A stretch of DNA of 12,553 nucleotides from Candidatus Woesearchaeota archaeon (GTDB taxonomy: Archaea; Nanobdellota; Nanobdellia; Woesearchaeales; WALR01). This document shows, piece after piece, positions 2,028 to 12,266 of this stretch. The stretch is from the NCBI GenBank assembly GCA_015522765.1, contig WALR01000076.1, positions 1 to 12,553 on the forward strand, written 5' to 3'. A program made the position numbers and the translations under genes. The stretch's first letter is position 1. The number at the start of each line of letters is the position of its first letter. The notes below the pieces were generated by a model that made no database searches, was not told where the DNA came from, and saw only the letters and a program-made list of their open reading frames with translations.

Positions 2028-3056
2028 ATGAGAACGCTTAAAAGGGATTTGAAGCATGGGATAATAAGGGTGATGCCCGAGAGGATTGAGGATGACTATG
2101 CACTCTCGCTTATTATTAAGAGGGGGGACATCGTTGAGGGACTCGCCACCAGGAAGATAAAGCTCGGGGGGAAGGAGGAGCCTGTTAAGAAGAGGTACAG
2201 GCTGAGGATAAGGGTTGAGAAGACATCCCTTGAGAATGGCACCCTCAGGGTGAACGGCAGGGTAGAAGAGGGGGTAGAAGAGGTCCCCTCAAAATCATTT
2301 CAGAGCATTATTGTTAGCCCCGGCTCAACAATCACAATAATAAAAGAGGAATGGAGCGCGTACGCCCTCCACCTCTTAAAGCAGGCAGGCAAAAGCCAGG
2401 AGGCACCCATCCTTCTCGTAGTCCATGATAGGGAGGAGGCATCATTCGCCCTTCTCAGGGGTAAGAGATACACACTGCTTGAGACTATCAGGGGGAATCC
2501 CCCCAAAAAGGACTATGCCCAGAACTCAGAGGACTTTTACAGGGAGATAGCAAAAGAGACTGAAAGGTACTCTGCAAAGTACTCCCCTAAAAGGATTATA
2601 GTGGCGAGCCCAGCCTTTTTCAAGGAGTATGTAGTAAAACTGCTGGCTGATGATGAGAAGGTGATAACCGCGAGCTGCTCAACCGCAGGGGAGAGGGGGG
2701 TAAACGAGGTTCTTAAGAGGGACGAGCTGAGAAGGGCGGTTAAGGAGGTAAGACAGGGGGATGATTCTGTTTTAATGGATGAGCTAAAGATGAGTATTGC
2801 GGCAGGTGGAAATGTGACATACGGAATTGACGAGGTTGAAAGGGCTGTAAATGCGGGTGCAGTCTCAAAGCTCCTCATAAGCCAGGGGCTCCTCACAGCA
2901 GAGGATGAGGCGCATTTCAGGAGGATTGATGCACTGATTAAAAAAGCGGAGTCCTCAAGGGGAGAGCTCCACATATTCGAGAAGGGGAGCGATGCTGAAA
3001 GGGAGCTTAACGGCCTGGGCGGAATCGCAGCTTTTTTAAGGTACAGGCTTAAATAG
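2028..3056 (+). CDS. pelA: Protein pelota homolog (archaeal Dom34), ribosome rescue factor
   Basis: Pelota recognises ribosomes stalled without a stop codon in the A site and, with a translational GTPase and ABCE1, promotes subunit splitting. It acts in the cytoplasm. The 342 residues match the usual archaeal length. The order is an N-terminal Sm-like beta domain (about 1-125, with HGIIRVMPERIEDDYALSL, GDIVEG and TRKIKL), a central RNase H-like domain (about 130-260, with LLVVHDREEASFALLRG) and a C-terminal L30e-like domain (about 265-342, with YGIDEVERAVNAGAVSKLLI, ending GLGGIAAFLRYRL). The family is archaeal and eukaryotic, which anchors the window in Archaea. The start fits a leaderless transcript. 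It forms an operon with the next gene, 9 nt downstream. No domain is missing. Confidence 0.96.
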   Translation: MRTLKRDLKHGIIRVMPERIEDDYALSLIIKRGDIVEGLATRKIKLGGKEEPVKKRYRLRIRVEKTSLENGTLRVNGRVEEGVEEVPSKSFQSIIVSPGSTITIIKEEWSAYALHLLKQAGKSQEAPILLVVHDREEASFALLRGKRYTLLETIRGNPPKKDYAQNSEDFYREIAKETERYSAKYSPKRIIVASPAFFKEYVVKLLADDEKVITASCSTAGERGVNEVLKRDELRRAVKEVRQGDDSVLMDELKMSIAAGGNVTYGIDEVERAVNAGAVSKLLISQGLLTAEDEAHFRRIDALIKKAESSRGELHIFEKGSDAERELNGLGGIAAFLRYRLK

Positions 3057-3065: not shown

Positions 3066-3959
3066 ATGGAATTCAGAAAGATTCAGAAGACGGGAAACAT
3101 GTTCTACCTCTACCTTCCAACTGACTGGTGCAGGATGAACGGCATAAAAAGGGACTCCCTCGTGAGGGTTAGTTCGGACAGCGCCGGCATCCTCCAAATA
3201 AAATCGTTCATTGAGGAAAAGGAGAAGTCTCTTCCCTCATTCTCTATAGACACCTCTGACAAGGACATACTCTCAAGGTTCATAGTTGCCTGTTATATCA
3301 ACCCTGCGCGAGGCTTTAATATAAACCTCAGGAAGCCCCTCGGATTCTCTGTTCTTCTCGACCAGAAAAAGCTCATAAGTGTCGAGGTGGTGGAGTTTGA
3401 CGGGAAGCATATAAGCTGCGAGTCGAGTGTCTCCATAGAAAACCCCTATTCCATCCTTAAAACCCTTATGAGAAAGGTTGTTAACATGCTCATAGTTATG
3501 CTAAAGAACTACAACTACGAGCTTATAGAGAGATACGAGAATGAGATTGACAGGAGCAGACTCCTAATAGAAAAGGCTGTCATCTCAGGGCTTATGAATG
3601 TAAAGTACTATGAAATGCCTGCTGTGGAGCTCCATTACTCGGCGATAATCGCGCGGGAGGTTGAGAGGCTCGTTGACAAGGTGATACTTCTCGACAAAAA
3701 GGACAAGCCATATATGAAGAAGCTTCTCTCCATATTCTCCGCCCTTCTCTCCATAATTGACGAGAACAGGATAGACATCCATTCTGCCATAAGCTTTGCA
3801 GAGCTCTCTAAAGCAGTTAAGACAAAATCCTTTAAGGGGGACTTAGAGGGGGGCAGGGTTAAATTAAAAAACAGGCTTATAAAAAACGCCGTCTGGGAGG
3901 GCGTATCTGCAATATCAGAGGTGATATTTGACTGGGCAATCACCCTTTCCCTGCAGTAG
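3066..3959 (+). CDS. AbrB-like N-domain plus PhoU-like helical protein
   Basis: A 297-residue cytoplasmic protein. Residues 1-48 (start MEFRKIQKTGNMFYLYLP, then WCRMNGIKRDSLVRV and GILQIKSF) have the pattern of the AbrB/SpoVT swapped-hairpin DNA-binding fold. From about residue 125 to the end it is helical and resembles PhoU, with the helix AREVERLVDKVILL at 196-209 close to the PhoU signature. Archaeal proteins with this order are commonly annotated as phosphate uptake regulators, but DNA binding and a phosphate role are family inferences. No phosphate transporter gene is visible nearby. It follows pelA by 9 nt with a good ribosome binding site and is probably co-transcribed. Its C-terminal part may be a single PhoU-like unit rather than two. 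Confidence 0.82.
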   Translation: MEFRKIQKTGNMFYLYLPTDWCRMNGIKRDSLVRVSSDSAGILQIKSFIEEKEKSLPSFSIDTSDKDILSRFIVACYINPARGFNINLRKPLGFSVLLDQKKLISVEVVEFDGKHISCESSVSIENPYSILKTLMRKVVNMLIVMLKNYNYELIERYENEIDRSRLLIEKAVISGLMNVKYYEMPAVELHYSAIIAREVERLVDKVILLDKKDKPYMKKLLSIFSALLSIIDENRIDIHSAISFAELSKAVKTKSFKGDLEGGRVKLKNRLIKNAVWEGVSAISEVIFDWAITLSLQ

Positions 3960-4007: not shown

Positions 4008-4028
4008 AAAACAAAACATTTATATAAT
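4008..4028 (+). promoter_or_regulatory. Promoter of the envelope operon, with shared 17-bp element
   Basis: AAAACAAAACATTTATA (4008-4024), continuing TAAT, contains an A-rich BRE-like stretch and a TATA box centred near 4023. The ATG at 4050 is about 27 nt further on, so the mRNA is probably leaderless. The same 17 bases occur before the third lipoprotein gene at 10229-10245. Confidence 0.65.
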
Positions 4029-4049: not shown

Positions 4050-5264
4050 ATGGTTTCAAGAGATTTATCCCTAAAAAGAGTGAAAAAAGATTCAAAGAAA
4101 AGAAATGGCGTGGGAGGAGGAAGCGCAAGCACCCTCATAGTAATAATAACCTTTATGATAGTTCTTTACATTCTTTTCATTTCACCTGAGGAGCGGGTCA
4201 AGCTTCTTGGGGACGAGAACGCTACATCCCTGTCAACAATTAATTCTGCATCCGGCGCGGCGCTGTTAAAGGCAAGCCCGGGCAGGCTTATTAAAGAGGG
4301 GGCGCAGGAGGTGGAAAAGGACCTTCCCGGCTTTACGGTTTACAGCACTGTAAGCGCAAAGGTCCTCCATGAGGAAAATCCCTTTGTCATAAAGGCAAAC
4401 TCTTTTGAGAGGGAGGACAAAACAATTGAATTCTCCCTAAATCCCCTCCTGACAAGAGATGTTATACTCAGCTTTAATGCCAATGGGAAGGGGACTATGA
4501 CAATAAGGCTGAATGGAAATAAGGTGTTCGAGGGCCCAGTTTCATCAAACTCGCCTCCAATCAAATTAGACGGAAAATTCCTGCTGGCTGATAATAAACT
4601 CTCATTCAGGGTTGAGGGTGTAGGAATACTCTTCTGGATGTCAAACCAATACGAGATTTCCAATCTTAAGATAATAGGCAATGTGAAGGATGAGAGCAGA
4701 AAGAAGGCATCGCTGACATTCACCCTTTCAGAGGATGATATGGCTGCAGTTAAGAGTGCGGAACTTAGGTTCGTGCCTGACTGCATAGCCGGAGATACAG
4801 GGGTGCTCTCAATAAGGCTCAACAATGAGCTGCTCTTTGAGGGCGTGCCTGACTGCTCCCTGCCCAACAATATCGACATCCCTGCCGCCTATCTTAACAC
4901 AGGAGAAAACCTCCTATTATTCGAGAGCAACAGGGGAAGCTACACCATCAGCAATCTCGCGGTTAAGCTGAAGCCAAGAACAGCAGAGTACCCCCTCTAC
5001 AGCTTTGATGTTAATGAGAGCATATGGAATGACATTCTTAATGGAAACGCAAAGGTAAAGCTTAAGATGGACTTTATTGATGACGGAAAGCTGAAGAATG
5101 CAATTATCTATGTAAACACCGGGAAGAAGACGATATCAACAGACAAGGCTCATCTCGAGACAGACATAACATCTAAGGTAAGGCAGGGCGACAACACCCT
5201 TAAGATTGTCCCTGAGTCAAAGAGTATAGACCTAGTCTCTGTTGAGGCAGACATTGTTTACTGA
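4050..5264 (+). CDS. Single-pass membrane protein with three beta-rich extracellular repeats
   Basis: A 404-residue protein I do not recognise by family. The first 22 residues are strongly basic and there is one hydrophobic segment at 28-44 (STLIVIITFMIVLYILFI), which predicts cytoplasmic N-terminus and external C-terminus. The external part carries three similar units: TIRLNGNKVFEG...DNKLSFRVEG...YEISNLKI (151-208), SIRLNNELLFEG...GENLLLFESN...YTISNLAV (254-305), and IIYVNTGKKTIS...GDNTLKIV...SVEA (352-400). The pattern suggests jelly-roll-like beta domains of the sort that bind sugars or partner proteins. Two cysteines, 245 and 269, may form a disulfide in repeat 2. It is the first gene of the envelope operon and lies 24 nt before the M23 membrane protein, in the same frame. 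Partnership with that protein is inferred from order only. Confidence 0.82.
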   Translation: MVSRDLSLKRVKKDSKKRNGVGGGSASTLIVIITFMIVLYILFISPEERVKLLGDENATSLSTINSASGAALLKASPGRLIKEGAQEVEKDLPGFTVYSTVSAKVLHEENPFVIKANSFEREDKTIEFSLNPLLTRDVILSFNANGKGTMTIRLNGNKVFEGPVSSNSPPIKLDGKFLLADNKLSFRVEGVGILFWMSNQYEISNLKIIGNVKDESRKKASLTFTLSEDDMAAVKSAELRFVPDCIAGDTGVLSIRLNNELLFEGVPDCSLPNNIDIPAAYLNTGENLLLFESNRGSYTISNLAVKLKPRTAEYPLYSFDVNESIWNDILNGNAKVKLKMDFIDDGKLKNAIIYVNTGKKTISTDKAHLETDITSKVRQGDNTLKIVPESKSIDLVSVEADIVY

Positions 5265-5288
5265 ACGATAATATGCTTTCTATTAGGA

Positions 5289-7889
5289 GTGCAGGCAGTT
5301 TACAACCGGCTGAGAAAAATGATAAAAGGAAAATTCGGGAGGTTAAAGGAATTCTTTAAAGCGAAGGTGGGAAAACATAAAGAAGCCTCAGGGGAAAACT
5401 CGGCAGGCTATAATGAACCGATGCATCCCCCTAATCGATTCTACCAATATGGTATACCTCGAAGCGTAGTGGGAATCAATGACTATCTGAGCGAGAGCAA
5501 CACACCAATAATACTTGGGCTTATTGTATGGCTTATTTCAATCCCCCTCAACGCGGCGGGCCTCATAAAATACACCCTCGCATTGTATCTTCTTCTCTCA
5601 ATATGGTACCTCAGTCTTCCAAGGGCTCCCGCGAGTAAGAGGAGCATAGCCATTTTATTCTTCCTGACAACAGTCTTCATCCCCATCTTCAGGACTCTTG
5701 CCCAGCTCATAATGTTCACCGCATTACTGCTTGCATTGACCTACTTCTTCATATTCAGGGATGAGGACTCGAGGGAGCTCGGAACGATGCTTCTCCTTGT
5801 AATATTCTTCTTCCACCTCTCGATAGGGCTCTTTCCGCTTCTTGCAAACCTCCTCCCCGGAATAGAGACAACAAGGCTCTTTATGATGTTAAGGGACCTA
5901 ATAAGGTACTTCCCAATAATCCTTATACCTGTTTTGTGGTTCGCCCAGACAACCCTTGGCGAGATACTTAAGTATGTGTTTCTGGGCTACCTTCTTTTAG
6001 GCAGTTTCTTATATGTCAGCCCTGCCTACTCCCACATGTCCGTCCTTAACATTTACAGGCCCCAGGCAGAGAAGATGAATGAGAAGGTTCAGGGGCAGGG
6101 CGGCTTCCTCTCCAGAATGCCCTCCCAGCTCTTCCTCGGCGCAAAGTGCGCCCTCGGAATGGGGAACAGCTCCGAGTGCGCCCGTCTCGGGGAGCTAAGC
6201 GGCGTTGACAATGGGGAGGCAAACACTACAAAGAGCAGGGCTCTCCTCAAGGGCAGGATAGAGGACTCCAATGATGTATTCTTCCTCTCATTAACCAAGC
6301 CCCGCAGGAGCAATGATTATGACAGGACAGGCGCCTCCTTCAATGTCATTTACAGGAGCCCGCTTGACACATTTGACCTCTCGCTTGAATGCAATATAAA
6401 GTCCCCTACAGGAATGGTCAGGGGGGACTCGTTCTTCGAGGTGTTTAACCCTTCATCGCTGGCATACGAGAAGAAGGCCTTAGTCCCCCAGCTCAGAAGC
6501 GATGAGAGGAGCAGGGCGACATCCTCTATAAGCGGGAAGTGTTTCGTCAATCCCAACCAGATATCCATGGGCAAGAACGATTTCATAATAAAGGTTAGTG
6601 CGTCAGGCATACACTCTGCAGTCCGCCTCCCCCTACTGTTCATCCCCGCAGAATACTACTCGAGGATTTCTGCAGAGGCATCAAGAAACGGGATAAATGC
6701 ACCGGACACATATAAAAAGGTGGGCGACAGCTACATAACCAAGAACATAAACACATATAAAAAAGAGCTCTTTGAATACCAAAGGAATATGCTTGAGAGT
6801 GCAAAGGTGAGAGGGAGCAATAAGATAGATTCAACATATCCGTTTGGAAGGGTTACCTCATTCTACCTTAATAAGCTCGTCCCCTGGGTTCTGGATGTCT
6901 CAAACACCGGCTACGACAGCTACGGTCCGGTAATATCTGTAAGGAAAGACGGCTCTACAACAATTACCCTTTACCTTGGCATCTCCCAGGGAATGCCGAA
7001 GGAGCTGAGCCTCAAGGTTGGGAGTGCGAAGCTCATCCTTCCTGAAGGATTAACCCCTGTGAAGGGCGCATGCCCCTTCTCGAGGAAGAGCAAGGGTTCA
7101 GCCAATGCGTGGGAGATGGAAAACCCGAACCTTCTTGACACTGAAAGGATGCGTAAGGGGACTCTTGACTCCTCTGTCTCCTGCCTTCTGGCAGTTACGG
7201 ATCCCTCTAAGATAACAGAGCCCTCCAGCGTTACGAAGAGGGATGTTGAGGTGGTCTTTGATAATATGGTTTATGAAATTGAGAACAATAAGTTCAGCAT
7301 AACATTCAACGGGAAGGAGATGTTCAATGGCAGGCTTGACTTCTTCCCCCTCCAGTCCGGCGTGTATAAGCCCTTCTTTGAGAGCGACTACGGCTCATGC
7401 AGGCCTGACAGGCCCTGGCTGAGCAGTCAGGGGTGCAGGTTCCACGAGGGGATAGACCTTCTCACAAAGGGGAATACGGTTGGTCTGCCTGTTTATTCTG
7501 TCCGCCCGGGAAAGATAGTTAAGGTAGGGTGCAACCTCTACGGGGGGAACAGGCTCACGATAGCGGATGAGGACAACCCCCTCCTCGTCTATTACTATGC
7601 CCATCTCCACTCCTATGCAAAGGACTGGAAGGTGGGGGATGAGGTGAAGGCAGGGGAGCTTATAGGGACAGTCGGAAATACGAGGAACTGCGAGAAGAAA
7701 TGCATTAATGACAGGCCCTGCAGGGATAAGTGCAGTGTCATTGACGGGGTCCATTTATGCGGTGAGGTTGACAATACAATGGTTGCCCATCTCCACTTCG
7801 GGATTTACCTCTCCGGAAGGTCGCTTAATCCCTATAATGCATTAGTCGATGCAGAAAACAGGTATGTTAATGGAGGAAAAAATGCCTAA
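5289..7889 (+). CDS. Polytopic membrane protein with C-terminal M23 (LytM-like) peptidase domain
   Basis: 866 residues from a GTG start. Residues 1-70 are basic and presumably cytoplasmic. About seven hydrophobic segments follow between 74 and 245. A large, probably external region of about 450 residues comes next, then an M23 domain at about 705-855. M23 enzymes are zinc endopeptidases that usually cut peptide bridges. All expected residues are present: H719 and D723 (HEGID), H772 (YAHL), H834 and H836 (HLHF). An insertion between GELIGTVGN and HLHF holds cysteines 801, 805, 811, 815 and 824, and C716 precedes the zinc motif, which suggests disulfides outside the cell. The start is uncertain: GGAG (5286-5289) overlaps the GTG, and ATG at 5319 is an alternative. 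The substrate in an archaeon is unknown; a structural or regulatory use of the fold is possible. Confidence 0.88.
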   Translation: MQAVYNRLRKMIKGKFGRLKEFFKAKVGKHKEASGENSAGYNEPMHPPNRFYQYGIPRSVVGINDYLSESNTPIILGLIVWLISIPLNAAGLIKYTLALYLLLSIWYLSLPRAPASKRSIAILFFLTTVFIPIFRTLAQLIMFTALLLALTYFFIFRDEDSRELGTMLLLVIFFFHLSIGLFPLLANLLPGIETTRLFMMLRDLIRYFPIILIPVLWFAQTTLGEILKYVFLGYLLLGSFLYVSPAYSHMSVLNIYRPQAEKMNEKVQGQGGFLSRMPSQLFLGAKCALGMGNSSECARLGELSGVDNGEANTTKSRALLKGRIEDSNDVFFLSLTKPRRSNDYDRTGASFNVIYRSPLDTFDLSLECNIKSPTGMVRGDSFFEVFNPSSLAYEKKALVPQLRSDERSRATSSISGKCFVNPNQISMGKNDFIIKVSASGIHSAVRLPLLFIPAEYYSRISAEASRNGINAPDTYKKVGDSYITKNINTYKKELFEYQRNMLESAKVRGSNKIDSTYPFGRVTSFYLNKLVPWVLDVSNTGYDSYGPVISVRKDGSTTITLYLGISQGMPKELSLKVGSAKLILPEGLTPVKGACPFSRKSKGSANAWEMENPNLLDTERMRKGTLDSSVSCLLAVTDPSKITEPSSVTKRDVEVVFDNMVYEIENNKFSITFNGKEMFNGRLDFFPLQSGVYKPFFESDYGSCRPDRPWLSSQGCRFHEGIDLLTKGNTVGLPVYSVRPGKIVKVGCNLYGGNRLTIADEDNPLLVYYYAHLHSYAKDWKVGDEVKAGELIGTVGNTRNCEKKCINDRPCRDKCSVIDGVHLCGEVDNTMVAHLHFGIYLSGRSLNPYNALVDAENRYVNGGKNA
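7872..7876 (+). promoter_or_regulatory. Ribosome binding site deciding the first lipoprotein start
   Basis: GGAGG lies 5 nt before the ATG at 7882, within the end of the M23 gene. This favours 7882 over the in-frame ATG at 7849, which lacks such a site and would put charged residues before the signal peptide. Confidence 0.75.
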
Positions 7890-9105
7890 GAATCATAATT
7901 CAAGGACGATACTGCTTTTAATCCTTCTCCTAATAGTTGTAGGTGTGAGCGGATGCAGGAGATTTACGACTCACAAGGCGGATAACTCAAATCTTGGAAA
8001 GGGGTTCAGCCAGATATACACGGGAACTGACGGCGTAGTGTTTGATGTGCTTAAGGGGATGCCCCCTTCAACAATATCCCAGGGGGAATCATTCTCAATA
8101 GGCATCCTTATTGTAAATAAGGGCGCGGATGCCGCCAGGGGGGTTGTTAAGATAGGCGGCTACGACCCTGACAAGTTCTCCCTCCCAAAAACATCAGCTG
8201 ACTTCGCGGTCGGGGGTAAAAGGGAGTATGGGACCATAGGCGGCGAAGCAAGGAAGGTCTTTGACGCATCAAACACGAGAATACCATATGGCACAGAGGA
8301 GTACACAGGGACATTTACTGTAAGTATCTGCTACAACTACACCACTAAGGCGGCGCTGCCCGTCTGCATAAAGCCGCCTGACAAGTCCAGCCAGATTACT
8401 GAGGCGTGCAAGAATGGGGTGACAAAGGATTCTGCTGGCCAGGGCTCTCCAGTAACTATTGATGCAGTCCAGAGCGAGAGCACTACAGAGGATGGGAAGA
8501 CAAAGCTGAGATTCAAGTTCCACATAAAAAACGCCGGCAGGGGAAGGGTTACAGAGTTTAACTCAGGGCTCTGCAACGGCGACTCCTCTGTAAGGGTTGA
8601 TGAAATCAGTGTTTATGGGAAGTCCTATAAGAAGGGGGAGGTGAAATGCTCATTTAGGGGGGAGGATGGCCTGTTCCTATTAGGGGCGGACAAGGACAAC
8701 TACCTTGACTGCTCGGTCGACCTCGGCGGCTACAAAATTTCCTCTTTTGAAACCCCTGTTGTTATCCATCTCTCATACGGCTACCTCGAGTCAGAAGACA
8801 TTGATGTAAAGGTGAAGGGCAGGGACATAATACTCTGCCCTGCGGACCACTGCAAGGACAAGGGAATGTGCACTACTTATTATAATGGCTACTTTGATGA
8901 CAATAATAAAAGAATGGACTGCGATAAGGGCTATGAGTGCTGCAAGTCAGCCCTCTCAAAGTGTGAGAGGGAGCATGAGGGTGCCTCATGCAGGAGAAAA
9001 GGGGAGTGCGGCCAGTCGGTGTTCCCCGGAGAGTGCCCTGGAAAACTCCTCTGCTGCCCCCCTAAGCTGCCTGAGAGTCCTGCAGGGTCTAATGGAAAGA
9101 AATAA
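7882..9105 (+). CDS. Secreted lipoprotein with two Ig-like domains and a 12-cysteine tail
   Basis: 407 residues starting inside the M23 gene (8-bp overlap). A signal peptide with a run of Leu/Ile ends in the lipobox VSGC, so Cys25 is the likely lipidated residue and the protein faces outward. Two beta-rich domains follow: one opening with TGTDGVVFDV and containing the ICYNY...PVCI cysteine pair, the other opening with GQGSPV and containing FHIKNAGRGRV and SYGY. The same landmarks recur in the next two lipoproteins, so all three are paralogues. Only this copy has a C-terminal module (residues 319-392) with 12 cysteines in two six-cysteine repeats sharing C-x5-C-x(8 or 16)-C-x5-CC. This looks like a small disulfide-knotted domain, superficially like WAP or knottin folds. 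Function is unknown; coupling to the M23 gene suggests a partner role. Confidence 0.85.
   Translation: MPKNHNSRTILLLILLLIVVGVSGCRRFTTHKADNSNLGKGFSQIYTGTDGVVFDVLKGMPPSTISQGESFSIGILIVNKGADAARGVVKIGGYDPDKFSLPKTSADFAVGGKREYGTIGGEARKVFDASNTRIPYGTEEYTGTFTVSICYNYTTKAALPVCIKPPDKSSQITEACKNGVTKDSAGQGSPVTIDAVQSESTTEDGKTKLRFKFHIKNAGRGRVTEFNSGLCNGDSSVRVDEISVYGKSYKKGEVKCSFRGEDGLFLLGADKDNYLDCSVDLGGYKISSFETPVVIHLSYGYLESEDIDVKVKGRDIILCPADHCKDKGMCTTYYNGYFDDNNKRMDCDKGYECCKSALSKCEREHEGASCRRKGECGQSVFPGECPGKLLCCPPKLPESPAGSNGKK
8836..9057 (+). other. Cysteine-rich double repeat (domain within the lipoprotein)
   Basis: This stretch encodes 12 cysteines in 74 residues. Repeat 1 spacing is C-x4-C-x5-C-x16-C-x5-CC; repeat 2 is C-x8-C-x5-C-x8-C-x5-CC. 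The repeated framework shows internal duplication of a six-cysteine unit with three likely disulfides each. Confidence 0.7.
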
Positions 9106-9131
9106 AAAGGTTGAATCAAAAGTACTCATAT

Positions 9132-9136
9132 GGTGA
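9132..9136 (+). promoter_or_regulatory. Ribosome binding site deciding the second lipoprotein start
   Basis: GGTGA lies 4 nt before the ATG at 9141. It favours that start over the in-frame TTG at 9111, giving a standard signal peptide beginning MKKENLL. Confidence 0.7.
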
Positions 9137-9140
9137 AAAG

Positions 9141-10208
9141 ATGAAGAAGGAGAATCTGCTGCCCGGATTTTTCATTGTGCTTGCCCTCTCGCTTTTACTC
9201 CTCTCAGGGTGCACGAATAATAATAGGGGGATGAACAACCTTAAGCTGGGCGGCCTTGGAAGGAACCCTGATAAGTATGTTGATGTCAGGACAAATTTCC
9301 ATACAGGCACAAAGGGGGTTACTGTTAAGTTTGTGAAGGACAATCCGCCATTAATCCTTTATGACACTGGTAATACAGACCCTTCTAAGCCCGAGATTCC
9401 CCTCCTCCTCCAGGTCCGTAATGAGGGCGCCTATACTCCGGACGCCATTTACATCTACCTCACAGGATTTGACCCTAATATAATAGGGCTCCCGACAAGA
9501 TTTCCTCGTATAAGCTCCCTTCAGGGGAGGAGCCTCTTCAACACAGAGGGCGGCATAGCCATGCTGGGTCTTAGTGATGGCACTGAATTTGGCACAGGAG
9601 TTGATAGGGGTCAGATAGACCTCCCCCCTGAGCTTGACGAGTTTAATCCGACTATCCAGGCACTGTTCTGCTATGATTATGAGACAGATGCCAGTCCTAC
9701 GATATGTGTTGATCCTCATCCCTACACAGTAACAGAGCAGAAGGCGTGCAGGGTGGAGGATGTGAAGGACTTCAGGGTGGGGGGCCAGGGTGGTCCTGTT
9801 GCAGTCACCTCTGTCAGGCCCAGGATGGTTCCAGGAAAGGTCATAGTCGAGATTGGTATAAGAAACAGTGGGCACGGCAAGGTTGTCAGCATTGATTCAA
9901 TAGGCGGTAATTGCCCCTTCGGTCTTGGTTTCAGCGATATGAACATCATGGGGTATGAGGTAACATTCAACGGCAAGATTGTTGACAGCAATTCAAATAC
10001 TGGCAGAACAACAGGTTCAGTAGAATACGGATGCCAGCCCTCTCTTCTCAGGCTGAGGAACAATGCGGCAACCCTCCACTGCATCTTCCCGATTAACTCC
10101 ATGCAGAACTCTGCCTATCAGACAGTCCTTAATATTAAGCTTAAGTACGGCTACCTTGATTATACAGAAAAGCAGTTGAGGATAAAGAACATTAAGCGGT
10201 ACGGCTAG
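9141..10208 (+). CDS. Secreted lipoprotein, second paralogue
   Basis: 355 residues with a signal peptide ending in the lipobox LLSGC (Cys24). The mature part starts with an Asn/Gly-rich linker, then shows the shared family landmarks in order: TGTKGVTVKF, an NPP turn, LQVRNEGAY, a cysteine pair in FCYDY...TICV, the hinge GGQGGPV, GIRNSGHGKV, further cysteines (GNC, YGC, LHC) and KYGYLDY near the end. It lacks the 12-cysteine tail of its upstream relative and ends soon after the second beta-rich domain. The gene lies 35 nt after the first lipoprotein gene with its own ribosome binding site and no clear promoter between them, so it is probably the last member of the operon that begins at 4050. 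The family has no name known to me. Confidence 0.84.
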   Translation: MKKENLLPGFFIVLALSLLLLSGCTNNNRGMNNLKLGGLGRNPDKYVDVRTNFHTGTKGVTVKFVKDNPPLILYDTGNTDPSKPEIPLLLQVRNEGAYTPDAIYIYLTGFDPNIIGLPTRFPRISSLQGRSLFNTEGGIAMLGLSDGTEFGTGVDRGQIDLPPELDEFNPTIQALFCYDYETDASPTICVDPHPYTVTEQKACRVEDVKDFRVGGQGGPVAVTSVRPRMVPGKVIVEIGIRNSGHGKVVSIDSIGGNCPFGLGFSDMNIMGYEVTFNGKIVDSNSNTGRTTGSVEYGCQPSLLRLRNNAATLHCIFPINSMQNSAYQTVLNIKLKYGYLDYTEKQLRIKNIKRYG

Positions 10209-10228
10209 CTGGAATTAATGCACCTAAT

Positions 10229-10250
10229 AAAACAAAACATTTATAAAAAA
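10229..10250 (+). promoter_or_regulatory. Promoter with the shared 17-bp element before the third lipoprotein
   Basis: AAAACAAAACATTTATA at 10229-10245 repeats exactly the element at 4008-4024. The TATA box predicts a transcript start near 10270 and a leader of about 65 nt. Further TATA-like sequences at 10281-10287 and 10302-10308 could give shorter leaders, so the true start site is uncertain. The 128-bp gap holds no gene that I can see. Confidence 0.55.
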
Positions 10251-10323
10251 GGGGAACAAAGGGATTCAGGTAGTTAGTAATTTATAACTCTATAATGTCA
10301 CTTTATAAAAAATTAAATTATGC

Positions 10324-10333
10324 GAGGCTGGTG
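10324..10333 (+). promoter_or_regulatory. Ribosome binding site of the third lipoprotein
   Basis: GAGGCTGGTG contains GAGG 9 nt and GGTG 3 nt before the ATG at 10337. It supports 10337 (or the GTG at 10331) over the far upstream ATG at 10295, which would add a hydrophilic extension before the signal peptide. Confidence 0.5.
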
Positions 10334-10336
10334 CGA

Positions 10337-11314
10337 ATGAGAAAAGAGATGATTTTCCTGACAATAACCTTTATAGCGCTTCTATTCCTGGTTAGCGGTT
10401 GCAGCAAGTCCCAGCAGTCAAAGGGCCCGGCTACTGGAACAAGCAGCGGGGCTTTTATAGGCGGTACAGACGGCGTGACACTTGCCTTTATGGACGGTTC
10501 TCCTCCGCCCGAGGTTTACGACAACAAGCTCTACCCTTTTAGTGTGAGCCTTAAGGTTTCAAATCAGGGCGAGTGGGATGTGCCAGCCGGCAAGGCAAAG
10601 ATAGTAATAAGGGGGATAGACGCCGCTGACTTCGGCAATCCAAAGGTAGAGGAGACACTTAATTATGAGATTTACGGGAAGAGGAAGGACGCCCAGGGGA
10701 CAATAACCCCCGGCACAATCACAAATGTGGATTTTCCAGGATTCAGCTATTCGAAGAAGCTTACAGGGAGCGCGGTTTTTAACATACAGGCAAATATCTG
10801 CTATCCCTACGGAGGAAAAGCATCCACGAAGATGTGCATCTGGAAGGAGATGCCAAGGCCTAAAAGGACAGGGGATGTGTGTGATGTGACTAGGAGGATG
10901 AACCCTGAGAATTCCGGTTCCCCTGTTCACATAAGTGATTTCAGCCAGTACCCTGTGGGCCCCCATAAGATAAGCTTCTCTTTTAAGATTACCCATGTTG
11001 GAACAGGGCAGCTCTTCTCTCCTGAGAATGCGAACTGTCAGGAGGGGGACTTCTCAACAAAGGACAAGGTAAAGGTGACAGTGGATACAGGCATAGCAGG
11101 ACTTACCTGCCCTACGCTTGGCTCATCGAGCGGAAGCTCGGTATCAGGCGAGGTCAAGCTATTCAAGGATGGGAATACGATTACATGCACCCAGGATGTT
11201 GGAAATGTTGCCTCTGACTTTGAGAAGGCAATCTCAATAATCACTGAGTTTAATTATAAGAAGAGCGCCCAGAAGTCCCTGATAGTTAAGCATATAGAGC
11301 AGGGCGGAAATTAG
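10337..11314 (+). CDS. Secreted lipoprotein, third paralogue
   Basis: 325 residues from the preferred ATG. A hydrophobic signal peptide ends in the lipobox LVSGC (Cys22), followed by a Ser/Gly/Thr-rich linker. Family landmarks recur: GGTDGVTLAF, GSPPPEVYDN, LKVSNQGEW, the cysteine pair ICYPY...KMCI, NSGSPVHI, FKITHVGTGQL, later cysteines at NC, LTC and ITC, and a final beta segment FNYKK. It is the shortest of the three and lacks the cysteine-rich tail. Unlike the other two it has its own promoter, carrying the same 17-bp element as the operon promoter at 4008, so it is likely expressed together with them but as a separate transcript. ATG at 10349 is a less likely alternative start. Its molecular function is unknown. 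Confidence 0.83.
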   Translation: MRKEMIFLTITFIALLFLVSGCSKSQQSKGPATGTSSGAFIGGTDGVTLAFMDGSPPPEVYDNKLYPFSVSLKVSNQGEWDVPAGKAKIVIRGIDAADFGNPKVEETLNYEIYGKRKDAQGTITPGTITNVDFPGFSYSKKLTGSAVFNIQANICYPYGGKASTKMCIWKEMPRPKRTGDVCDVTRRMNPENSGSPVHISDFSQYPVGPHKISFSFKITHVGTGQLFSPENANCQEGDFSTKDKVKVTVDTGIAGLTCPTLGSSSGSSVSGEVKLFKDGNTITCTQDVGNVASDFEKAISIITEFNYKKSAQKSLIVKHIEQGGN

Positions 11315-11383: not shown

Positions 11384-11599
11384 ATGGAGAGCGAGAGAGC
11401 AAGAATAAGCATACTCATAATGGTGGTGCTGGTTGTTGTTGTTTCTGTCTTGAGTGTGTGGACGGTTCTTGAGAGAACATCTCCCACTAATCAATATGTT
11501 CCCAATCAGGTTGAGGTGCATCATGGTGCGAGCGTCGGCAGTGTCAGTTTAAGGATACTCCCACCATCAGAGGCGCCCAATTCAAATGTGAAAAGGTGA
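11384..11599 (+). CDS. 71-residue single-pass mini-protein
   Basis: A small protein with a charged N-terminus (MESERAR), one membrane segment at about residues 8-28 (ISILIMVVLVVVVSVLSVW), and a short external tail of about 40 residues. The tail contains GASVGSVSLRILPP, one predicted beta strand. The same order occurs in the next gene: membrane segment, then LER, then a G-rich strand with alternating pattern (there TTGTANLTVLG). The mini-protein therefore looks like a shortened relative of its neighbour. The strong ribosome binding site, a TATA box and coupling to the next gene argue that it is real. Similar tiny anchored proteins seem common in DPANN genomes, as far as I recall, but no function is known to me. 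Confidence 0.75.
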   Translation: MESERARISILIMVVLVVVVSVLSVWTVLERTSPTNQYVPNQVEVHHGASVGSVSLRILPPSEAPNSNVKR

Positions 11600-11600
11600 T
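11595..11600 (+). promoter_or_regulatory. Ribosome binding site overlapping a stop codon
   Basis: GGTGAT contains the TGA stop (11597-11599) of the mini-protein and lies 6 nt before the ATG at 11607. The ribosome finishing one gene sits on the binding site of the next, so the two are translationally coupled. Confidence 0.7.
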
Positions 11601-11606
11601 GATACG

Positions 11607-12266
11607 ATGGATGAAATATCAAACAAGACTCTTATGGCGTTTCTTATTGCGGCGATTGTTATCTCTATAGGCGGCACCATTATAAGCCTCGAGCGTATAT
11701 CACGACTGGGTGCTCCAGAGGTTGCGGGCTATGCAACCACAGGAACAGCTAATCTAACAGTTCTGGGGACGGCGGCGGTTGTCGTTAACAAGAATGTTGA
11801 CTTTGGTTCTGGCTCTCCAAGCTCGGACGTGACTAACCAGACTACGCTGACCACTGAAACAGCCAATACAGGTGGATTTAATGACTGCACTACCGGGGAT
11901 AATTGTCTTGGTCTTGAGCTGGAGAATACTGGAAATGTTGATGTTAACATAACGATAACCGCGGCATCTGACTCCAATGGATTCTGGTCAGGGACAGATA
12001 CGCAGGGCTCTTTCCAGTTCTTTGTCGCTGACGGGAACAGGTCAAAGGATGAAACTGGCTCCTGCCATAACGCGAGCGGGGCAATAGTAACAGAGGTAAG
12101 CGACTGGACAGCGATATCAACGAGTCCTATACTCATGTGCTACAACTTCACCTATCCAAGCGCAACAGATACGCTTACAGTGGAGTTTAACCTCACCATT
12201 CCGACTGACGAACCAGTAGGTTACAAGGAGAACACATTTACCTTTGGCTTTACCCAGATAAGTTAA
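11607..12266 (+). CDS. Glycosylatable surface protein with NKTL-type membrane anchor
   Basis: 219 residues. A membrane segment at about 9-27 follows the start MDEISNKTLM; the external part begins near residue 30 and is Thr/Ser/Asn-rich and beta-like. It holds seven N-x-S/T sequons (Asn 49, 77, 114, 144, 155, 180, 195) and four cysteines (94, 100, 153, 178), enough for two disulfides. The middle segment VNKNVDFGSGSP followed by ELENTGNVDVNITI resembles small archaeal surface proteins with one Ig-like domain. The sequons suggest N-glycosylation by an archaeal oligosaccharyltransferase, and the composition suggests an abundant cell-surface or S-layer-associated component; both are inferences. 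It is coupled to the mini-protein upstream and followed directly by a strong terminator. Confidence 0.8.
   Translation: MDEISNKTLMAFLIAAIVISIGGTIISLERISRLGAPEVAGYATTGTANLTVLGTAAVVVNKNVDFGSGSPSSDVTNQTTLTTETANTGGFNDCTTGDNCLGLELENTGNVDVNITITAASDSNGFWSGTDTQGSFQFFVADGNRSKDETGSCHNASGAIVTEVSDWTAISTSPILMCYNFTYPSATDTLTVEFNLTIPTDEPVGYKENTFTFGFTQIS

Follow-up and report, generated by a model that had tools for sequence, protein, structure and literature searches.

Gene layout at the locus

The window, the whole 12,553-nucleotide stretch of DNA analysed here (contig C76, WALR01000076.1, of a 961-kb, 85% complete assembly of a Candidatus Woesearchaeota archaeon), carries five open reading frames (ORFs) in a row on one strand, which encode an anchor protein (A), a membrane-anchored carrier of an M23 peptidase head (M) and three lipoproteins (L1, L2, and L3). 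A (404 amino acids (aa), 4050..5264, plus strand) has an N-terminal membrane helix and jelly-roll-like beta repeats. M (866 aa, GTG start, 5289..7889, plus strand) is followed by L1 (418 aa, with a cysteine-rich C-terminus, 7849..9105), L2 (365 aa, 9111..10208) and L3 (339 aa, 10295..11314), all on the plus strand. The original prediction, made from the sequence alone, had described five consecutive same-strand genes with short or overlapping gaps within the first four, and the ORF listing of the window agrees: A and M are separated by 24 bp, M and L1 overlap, L1 and L2 are 5 bp apart and L2 and L3 86 bp apart, and no additional gene was found between A and L3. A promoter element common to A and L3 had also been proposed. 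The TATA-type promoter-like element AAAACAAAACATTTATA indeed occurs before A (4008..4024, plus strand) and as an identical copy before L3 (10229..10245, plus strand). Two matches to it with up to three mismatches were reached in 2 of 200 shuffles, and its 16-base core was found at just two sites in the assembly (the reversed control gave none). Because the element is identical and its core unique to these two sites, L3 appears to be under common control with the A-M-L1-L2 unit in the window's organism.

Conservation of the gene cluster in related archaea

The whole M protein was first searched against 60 genomes (the window's and 59 relatives), with matches in its own genome and six others. 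G042, G047, and G056 show the order pelota, A, M and three lipoproteins as in the window; a gene read as the RFC small subunit lies just past the lipoproteins in G042 and G056, and the G047 contig ends inside L3. In G010, G004, and G002 the M23 domain sits in a different, pilin-like operon. An anchor survey with a four-row profile of A detected the anchor in 219 of the 240 genomes of the order (141 of 149 when only those with a completeness of 90% or more are counted). In a phylum-level draw of 237 genomes, 196 had it; among the phylum matches listed, about 50, some of them weak, lie outside the order in the same class. In some genomes the anchor profile matched two to four times. A scan of named genomes yielded 50 loci from entries named Woesearchaeota, Nanoarchaeota, Nanoarchaeia or "archaeon", with the same gene order in named Woesearchaeota metagenome-assembled genomes. 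All fetched loci together number about 170, some places being present twice.

For the gene-order counts, loci of the order were taken from the best-scoring anchors and are not a random draw. Where there was room downstream (n = 98), the M core was found in 92 loci, L3 in 82, M with at least two lipoproteins in 81 and RFC in 70, and pelota lies upstream of A in 93 of the 97 loci with upstream room (pelota and RFC in relatives were recognised by home-built profiles, the name RFC being our reading). The M core was absent by profile in L085, L086, L099, L181, L184, and L192, and fewer than two lipoproteins were detected by profiles in 15 of the 98 loci. L181 and L184 (genomes G096 and G018) retain the anchor beside pelota, and no M core was found there. 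Seven loci from other orders of the class have A, then a short M of 389-482 aa and two lipoproteins, with pelota upstream in two of them. The conserved neighbourhood comprises pelota, A, M, L1-L3 and RFC. In the window, pelota (2028..3056, plus strand; TIGR00111, 187.1 bits against a cut-off of 177.65) is on the strand of A; it is usually divergent. It is essentially certain that A, M, L1, L2, and L3 form one conserved system, which belongs to the window's order (Woesearchaeales-type archaea) and related orders. When gene order was mapped in relatives the five genes stayed together across the order and were not scattered. This bears out the proposal of one undescribed archaeal envelope system, and a literature search of partial coverage returned no description of an A-M-L1-L2-L3 system.

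The membrane protein M and its ectodomain core

M consists of about seven hydrophobic helices (residues 72-248, 5502..6032, plus strand), an ectodomain core (residues 324-674, 6258..7310) and an M23 peptidase head (residues 717-800, 7437..7688; PF01551, 59 bits against a cut-off of 28.7). Its relatives were recognised by position and by a core profile, which matches 144 of 149 non-redundant M candidates. The conserved part in the alignment is the ectodomain of approximately 350 residues, made of beta sandwiches with the conserved cysteines C368, C418, C595, and C632. The AlphaFold2 (AF2) model of the window's M has a mean pLDDT of 58.4; the core sandwiches are confident and the model is weak elsewhere, with the M23 part left unmodelled, probably because few alignment rows carry M23. 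M had been predicted to have about seven membrane segments and an external M23 domain. The M23 domain was confirmed by its score and about seven helices appear in the weak model, but seven segments did not hold up as a general trait: a crude hydropathy count gave 0-10 hydrophobic segments before the core over 144 relatives, 4 for the window and 1-2 in other orders. Since the membrane part varies to this extent, a polytopic M is a trait of some lineages and not of the whole family.

Similarity searches with M returned little beyond the head. Foldseek with the weak model gave no PDB match at E ≤ 0.001, and VIA-align stayed below Z = 8, so that no specific fold relative of M was found. Of 34 matches to PDB sequences most were membrane-helix matches that we read as composition, and two SLT70 sequences matched in the tail (E 0.4-0.5). 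Pfam at E ≤ 1 reported only M23 and a weak ATP-synthase domain on the window's M, and no peptidoglycan-binding domain was recognised. A word-based protein database search, a limited method, with M and the M23 region found only the window's own near-identical protein. A lipoprotein-like ectodomain was considered and rejected after profile comparison gave only 5-10% probability.

Exchangeable C-terminal heads

Of the 144 M proteins that match the core profile, 73 continue for more than 40 residues past the core. Pfam was scanned for heads at E ≤ 0.01 in 144 distinct M candidates (42 + 67 + 35, with the window counted once), five of the 149 candidates being left out (the fragment L213 and the incomplete L108, L119, L121, and L145). 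SLT was found in 25, M23 in 5, glucosaminidase in 4, M15_4 in 2 (one of them, at E 7e-4, could not be traced to its protein) and Amidase_2 and NlpC/P60 in 1 each; in the batch of 67 only the 25 commonest families were listed, so that counts of other heads there are at least these. About a quarter of the Woesearchaeota members examined carry a head on one protein of the system, and its type differs between lineages. Other Pfam matches on M were fn3 (5) and single PKD, crystallin or Ig-like domains. Matches to CTP synthase and primase come from scanned candidates that are probably not M, and the likely source of the two CTP-synthase matches is the candidates taken at L181 and L184. The tail of the M at L152 looked NlpC/CHAP-like by eye and had no Pfam match. 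Apart from M and, at two loci, L1, nothing encoded in the clusters gave a hit to the local hydrolase profiles at E ≤ 1e-4.

Catalytic residues of the heads are mostly intact. The catalytic Glu is present in 26 of 28 SLT-like heads. The metal ligand motifs of M23 enzymes are HxxxD and HxH; the window retains both (HEGID at residue 719 and HLH at 834-836, past the Pfam stretch), and the motifs are complete in four of the five M23 heads (the window, L128, L082, and L222).

The distribution of heads was examined on a quick tree of 144 anchors, whose 28 SLT labels rest on a local SLT profile; this profile was iterated on the same tails, which inflates its E-values, and the head counts given above are those of Pfam. 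In the tree 91 of the 144 rows are labelled "none" and 10 are unassigned. No fewer than 27 changes are needed to explain the nine head states (mean of 40.3 for shuffled labels, floor of 8), and the well-supported branches alone force nine SLT changes and four M23 changes. A statement that M23 arose five times was dropped; it is a fewest-changes count, and the approximately unbiased (AU) test does not reject one M23 clade (p 0.08). One pair with different heads is L180 (glucosaminidase) and L104 (SLT), with M proteins 52% identical over 802 columns. Their tails, of which the first 10 residues are core, align only over the first 13 residues and in a 24-residue match at E 0.5, and their anchors fall in one clade of 8 SLT rows and 1 glucosaminidase row (Shimodaira-Hasegawa-like approximate likelihood ratio test (SH-aLRT), 100). 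The pair is a clean case of a direct head swap on M. M23 is not the defining feature of the system: the M ectodomain is kept and the C-terminal head is exchanged.

The anchor and the lipoproteins

The description of A as a single-pass protein with three beta repeats proved accurate. A has a single membrane helix (residues 24-43), and its confident AF2 model (mean pLDDT 86.8) contains three beta repeats in succession at about residues 124-214, 219-309, and 316-403 (strand pattern, boundaries approximate), preceded by some extra strands. By fold comparison the modelled repeats appear to be jelly rolls like those of carbohydrate-active proteins, BcsB and others (PDB 9fmt, 1pgs), which likewise have jelly-roll domains on a membrane-anchored protein. 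The likeness is in fold only: A had no match among PDB sequences at E ≤ 0.001, the best being a GH26 mannanase at E 0.49. PF14683, which resembles a carbohydrate-binding module, matched 12 of 42 anchors at E ≤ 0.1 (best 3e-6), the window's A not among them. Neither Pfam nor NCBIfam gave a match over cut-off for the window's A, L1, L2, or L3. Among 36 matches listed for anchor relatives, the label wherever there is one is "hypothetical protein". Longer anchor variants (e.g. in G013, G067, and G053) have frames of about 560-690 aa and match profile positions 15-335 or so only.

The three lipoproteins had been described as related to each other, and they carry lipoboxes (VSGC in L1, LSGC in L2, VSGC in L3) and are paralogues by BLASTP (L1-L2, E 1.8e-15; L1-L3, E 4.2e-11; L2-L3, E 4.3e-5) and by profile comparison (probability 100 for L1 against L3); L3 also has counterparts in relatives. 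L1 has a weak CARDB match in Pfam (E 0.027), and L3 matched no PDB sequence at E ≤ 1. At two loci, L161 (2130-3704) and L226 (4847-6583), an SLT domain is found on L1, and the M there is without SLT.

Candidate substrate and other hydrolases in these genomes

SLT, M23, glucosaminidase, M15, Amidase_2 and NlpC/P60 domains have peptidoglycan as their common substrate. Between them the six families have four or more unrelated folds: SLT and glucosaminidase are both lysozyme-like, while M15 has the same core as M23. We surveyed wall-synthesis genes in the same 60 genomes. A penicillin-binding transpeptidase was detected in two of them, the window's not included (PF00905 matches at G010:C1:1062871-1063686 and G047:C263:5644-6258). 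The Mur-ligase family is present in 23 of the 60, in one copy each except in G005, with no match better than E 4e-18 outside G005; the single-copy matches are presumably folate-type ligases. G005 (contigs C7 and C2) has three Mur-ligase-family matches, two of them strong (5e-52 and 7e-46), unlike the other 59 genomes, and these represent either real wall-polymer synthesis or a binning error. From these gene searches, the archaea appear to be without peptidoglycan synthesis of their own. Because the heads belong to peptidoglycan families and no own synthesis pathway was seen, the likely substrate is that of another cell, with bacteria as the natural candidate, and bacterial peptidoglycan is probably the target of the heads.

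A second display system consists of runs of small pilin-like one-helix ORFs and a single-helix protein with SLT or M23. In the window's genome, a pilin-like operon at L232 (G000:C148) ends in a single-helix SLT protein (5572-7107), and a single-helix 270-aa SLT protein at L231 (G000:C156, 3210-4022) lies outside both display systems. The second system was also seen at L003/L014, L006/L015, L013, L233, L234, L238, and L242, the last with SLT, M23 and a weak amidase match. Among the heads compared, the M23 of the window is closest by E-value to the G010 and G002 heads of the second system, at about 38% identity. As several SLT domains sit in single-helix proteins of pilin-like operons, these archaea have at least one further means of displaying such enzymes besides the M system.

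Flanking genes

Between pelota and A, positions 3066-3959 encode a 297-aa protein without a Pfam match, read as AbrB/PhoU-like; a relative of it was matched in locus L154. Past L3, two ORFs (71 and 219 aa) at 11384-12266 each have an N-terminal hydrophobic stretch; they gave no family match over cut-off and no match in the 43 other loci searched. On the minus strand, 179-1933 encodes a 584-aa protein with N-terminal hydrophobic stretches and then a long, charged, helical-looking part, again with no family match over cut-off.

Proposed function and rival explanations

Woesearchaeota have tiny cells and probably live at the expense of other cells. With modest confidence we lean towards a surface complex that works on contact, can be fitted with enzymes against bacterial walls and serves episymbiosis or predation. 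A and the lipoproteins would surround the outward-facing ectodomain of M on the outside of the archaeal membrane, and M, or sometimes L1, would carry the hydrolase head. In the window's organism this head is an M23 metallopeptidase that retains its ligands; relatives have a lytic transglycosylase, glucosaminidase, amidase, M15 or NlpC/P60 domain in its place. When the cells touch, A, the lipoproteins or both would bind the surface of the bacterium, the membrane-tethered head would then cut its peptidoglycan locally, and the archaeon could attach firmly, breach or feed. In headless lineages the core would presumably help the cell to attach to other hosts or have a part in the architecture of the envelope. 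For use in contact with living bacteria specifically, the balance tips only slightly in favour. Our best guess for the purpose is that the system attacks neighbouring cells or fastens the archaeon to a host, as had been suggested; that an envelope system lies here has stood, and the finding is real and larger than originally described.

Several observations weigh against this proposal. A recognised head is missing from most M proteins, and the M of the seven other-order loci is headless as well as short; wall cutting is therefore not the core function, and the core must have another job, which may be attachment. If the headless state of the other orders is ancestral, the core would be older than the heads. 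SLT domains were detected in 33 of the 60 genomes, mostly elsewhere: by coordinate comparison, 6 of the 63 SLT matches listed fall on the M (4) or L1 (2) of a fetched locus, and neither of the two SLT matches in the window's genome is on M. The M23 head of G042 (L010) is degraded, with ligand positions lost, and a single clade of the five M23 rows was not rejected by the AU test (p 0.08). The structure match list of A holds non-sugar proteins too, and the modelled fold that A has in common with carbohydrate-active jelly rolls does not establish sugar binding. The common promoter element is not a general trait of relatives: thirteen or more bases are shared before A and L3 in 4 of 121 loci, one of which is the window. 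The suggested physical association of the five products comes from gene order only.

One rival explanation is a general envelope or S-layer architecture complex that holds the archaeon's own surface together, with the heads as accessories for scavenging or defence that do not define the system. The core is near-universal and the heads are patchy, the other orders have a short M without a head, and M tails include fn3/PKD-type domains too. Such a complex leaves unexplained that most recognised C-terminal domains of M are from peptidoglycan-hydrolase families and that heads were repeatedly exchanged at one place, and we consider it unlikely. Alternatively, the head may remodel the archaeon's own wall polymer or that of an archaeal host (e.g. 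methanogen pseudomurein) instead of bacterial peptidoglycan. Peptidoglycan is not strictly the only substrate of M23-type enzymes, but SLT and glucosaminidase act on a MurNAc-GlcNAc backbone that is absent from pseudomurein, and peptidoglycan is the substrate common to all six head families. This explanation is improbable, even with the point in its favour, made in the portion of the article cited, that all cultivated DPANN have archaeal hosts (PMC11291902).

Two further explanations concern M as part of a known machine. The original prediction had compared the system with EnvC/NlpD, in which case M would be an inactive LytM-type regulator that activates a partner hydrolase. M resembles these proteins in having an M23 fold in an envelope setting, and the M23 of G042 is degenerate. 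The comparison failed on other grounds: the window, L128, L082, and L222 retain HxxxD and HxH, the catalytic Glu is kept by most SLT-like heads, and the NCBIfam activator models scored far below cut-off (ActS, 21.1 against 375 bits; NlpD, 12.2 against 311 bits). Moreover, M23 is one of six Pfam head families, other heads replace it in relatives, and most members have no recognised head. The analogy was rejected on the intact ligands and the model scores, and a regulatory role is very improbable. A DNA or protein transfer machine of the type IV secretion kind, with a VirB1-like head, would match the logic of a membrane protein combined with a wall hydrolase. Against it stand a window without any additional gene between A and L3, a conserved gene set of pelota, A, M, L1-L3 and RFC, and a number of M membrane segments that is not conserved; the neighbourhoods of relatives were profiled for eight genes only, VirB4/VirD4-type ATPases, including unlinked ones, not being among the searches. 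A VirB6-like role of M was dropped on the variable segments and the absence of an extra gene in the cluster, with that same limit on ATPases, and we regard a transfer machine as the least credible explanation.

Comparison with known systems and outlook

VirB1, FlgJ and the domains of phage tape-measure proteins are peptidoglycan hydrolases mounted on trans-envelope machines. The M system resembles these in combining a conserved machine with interchangeable peptidoglycanases; it differs in that A, the M core and L1-L3 showed no similarity to such machines in the searches made and no own peptidoglycan pathway was seen. Peptidoglycan hydrolases in Woesearchaeota, and the idea that some such archaea live on or attack bacteria, are already in print, as far as the published portions cited here go (PMC8204110, PMC9723730, PMC12352652). 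The family fam00969 resembles M in its organisms, its SLT-type domain and the bacterial walls proposed as target; it is one protein family within a module of 51, and its description, in the part of the article cited, includes no five-gene locus, head exchange, anchor or lipoproteins, unlike the M system (PMC8204110). Woldo and the other enzymes described in the cited part of PMC12352652 are, like the window's head, archaeal M23 and other peptidoglycan hydrolases, prominent in Nanoarchaeota. As described there, they combine a catalytic with a peptidoglycan-binding domain, whereas the window's M is membrane-tethered, has no wall-binding domain recognised by Pfam and lies in a conserved cluster. 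Because A, the M core and L1-L3 have no Pfam or NCBIfam match over cut-off and no described counterpart was found, we call the system new in kind; the hydrolase heads themselves are of known kinds.

A broader version of the proposal, tentative and rather doubtful, is a dedicated, order-wide docking and wall-breaching apparatus for life on bacteria: a conserved adhesive platform into which each lineage plugs the peptidoglycanase that fits the wall of the bacterium it currently lives with. If true, the type of head would predict the wall chemistry of the partner, and the hosts of headless lineages would be without peptidoglycan. The question of whether any Woesearchaeota live on bacteria gains a defined gene set in this surface system, which is nearly universal and unnamed and has a variable subunit that time and again acquires domains of a type that cuts peptidoglycan. 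Protein families without a function, such as the anchor, in turn gain a working hypothesis.

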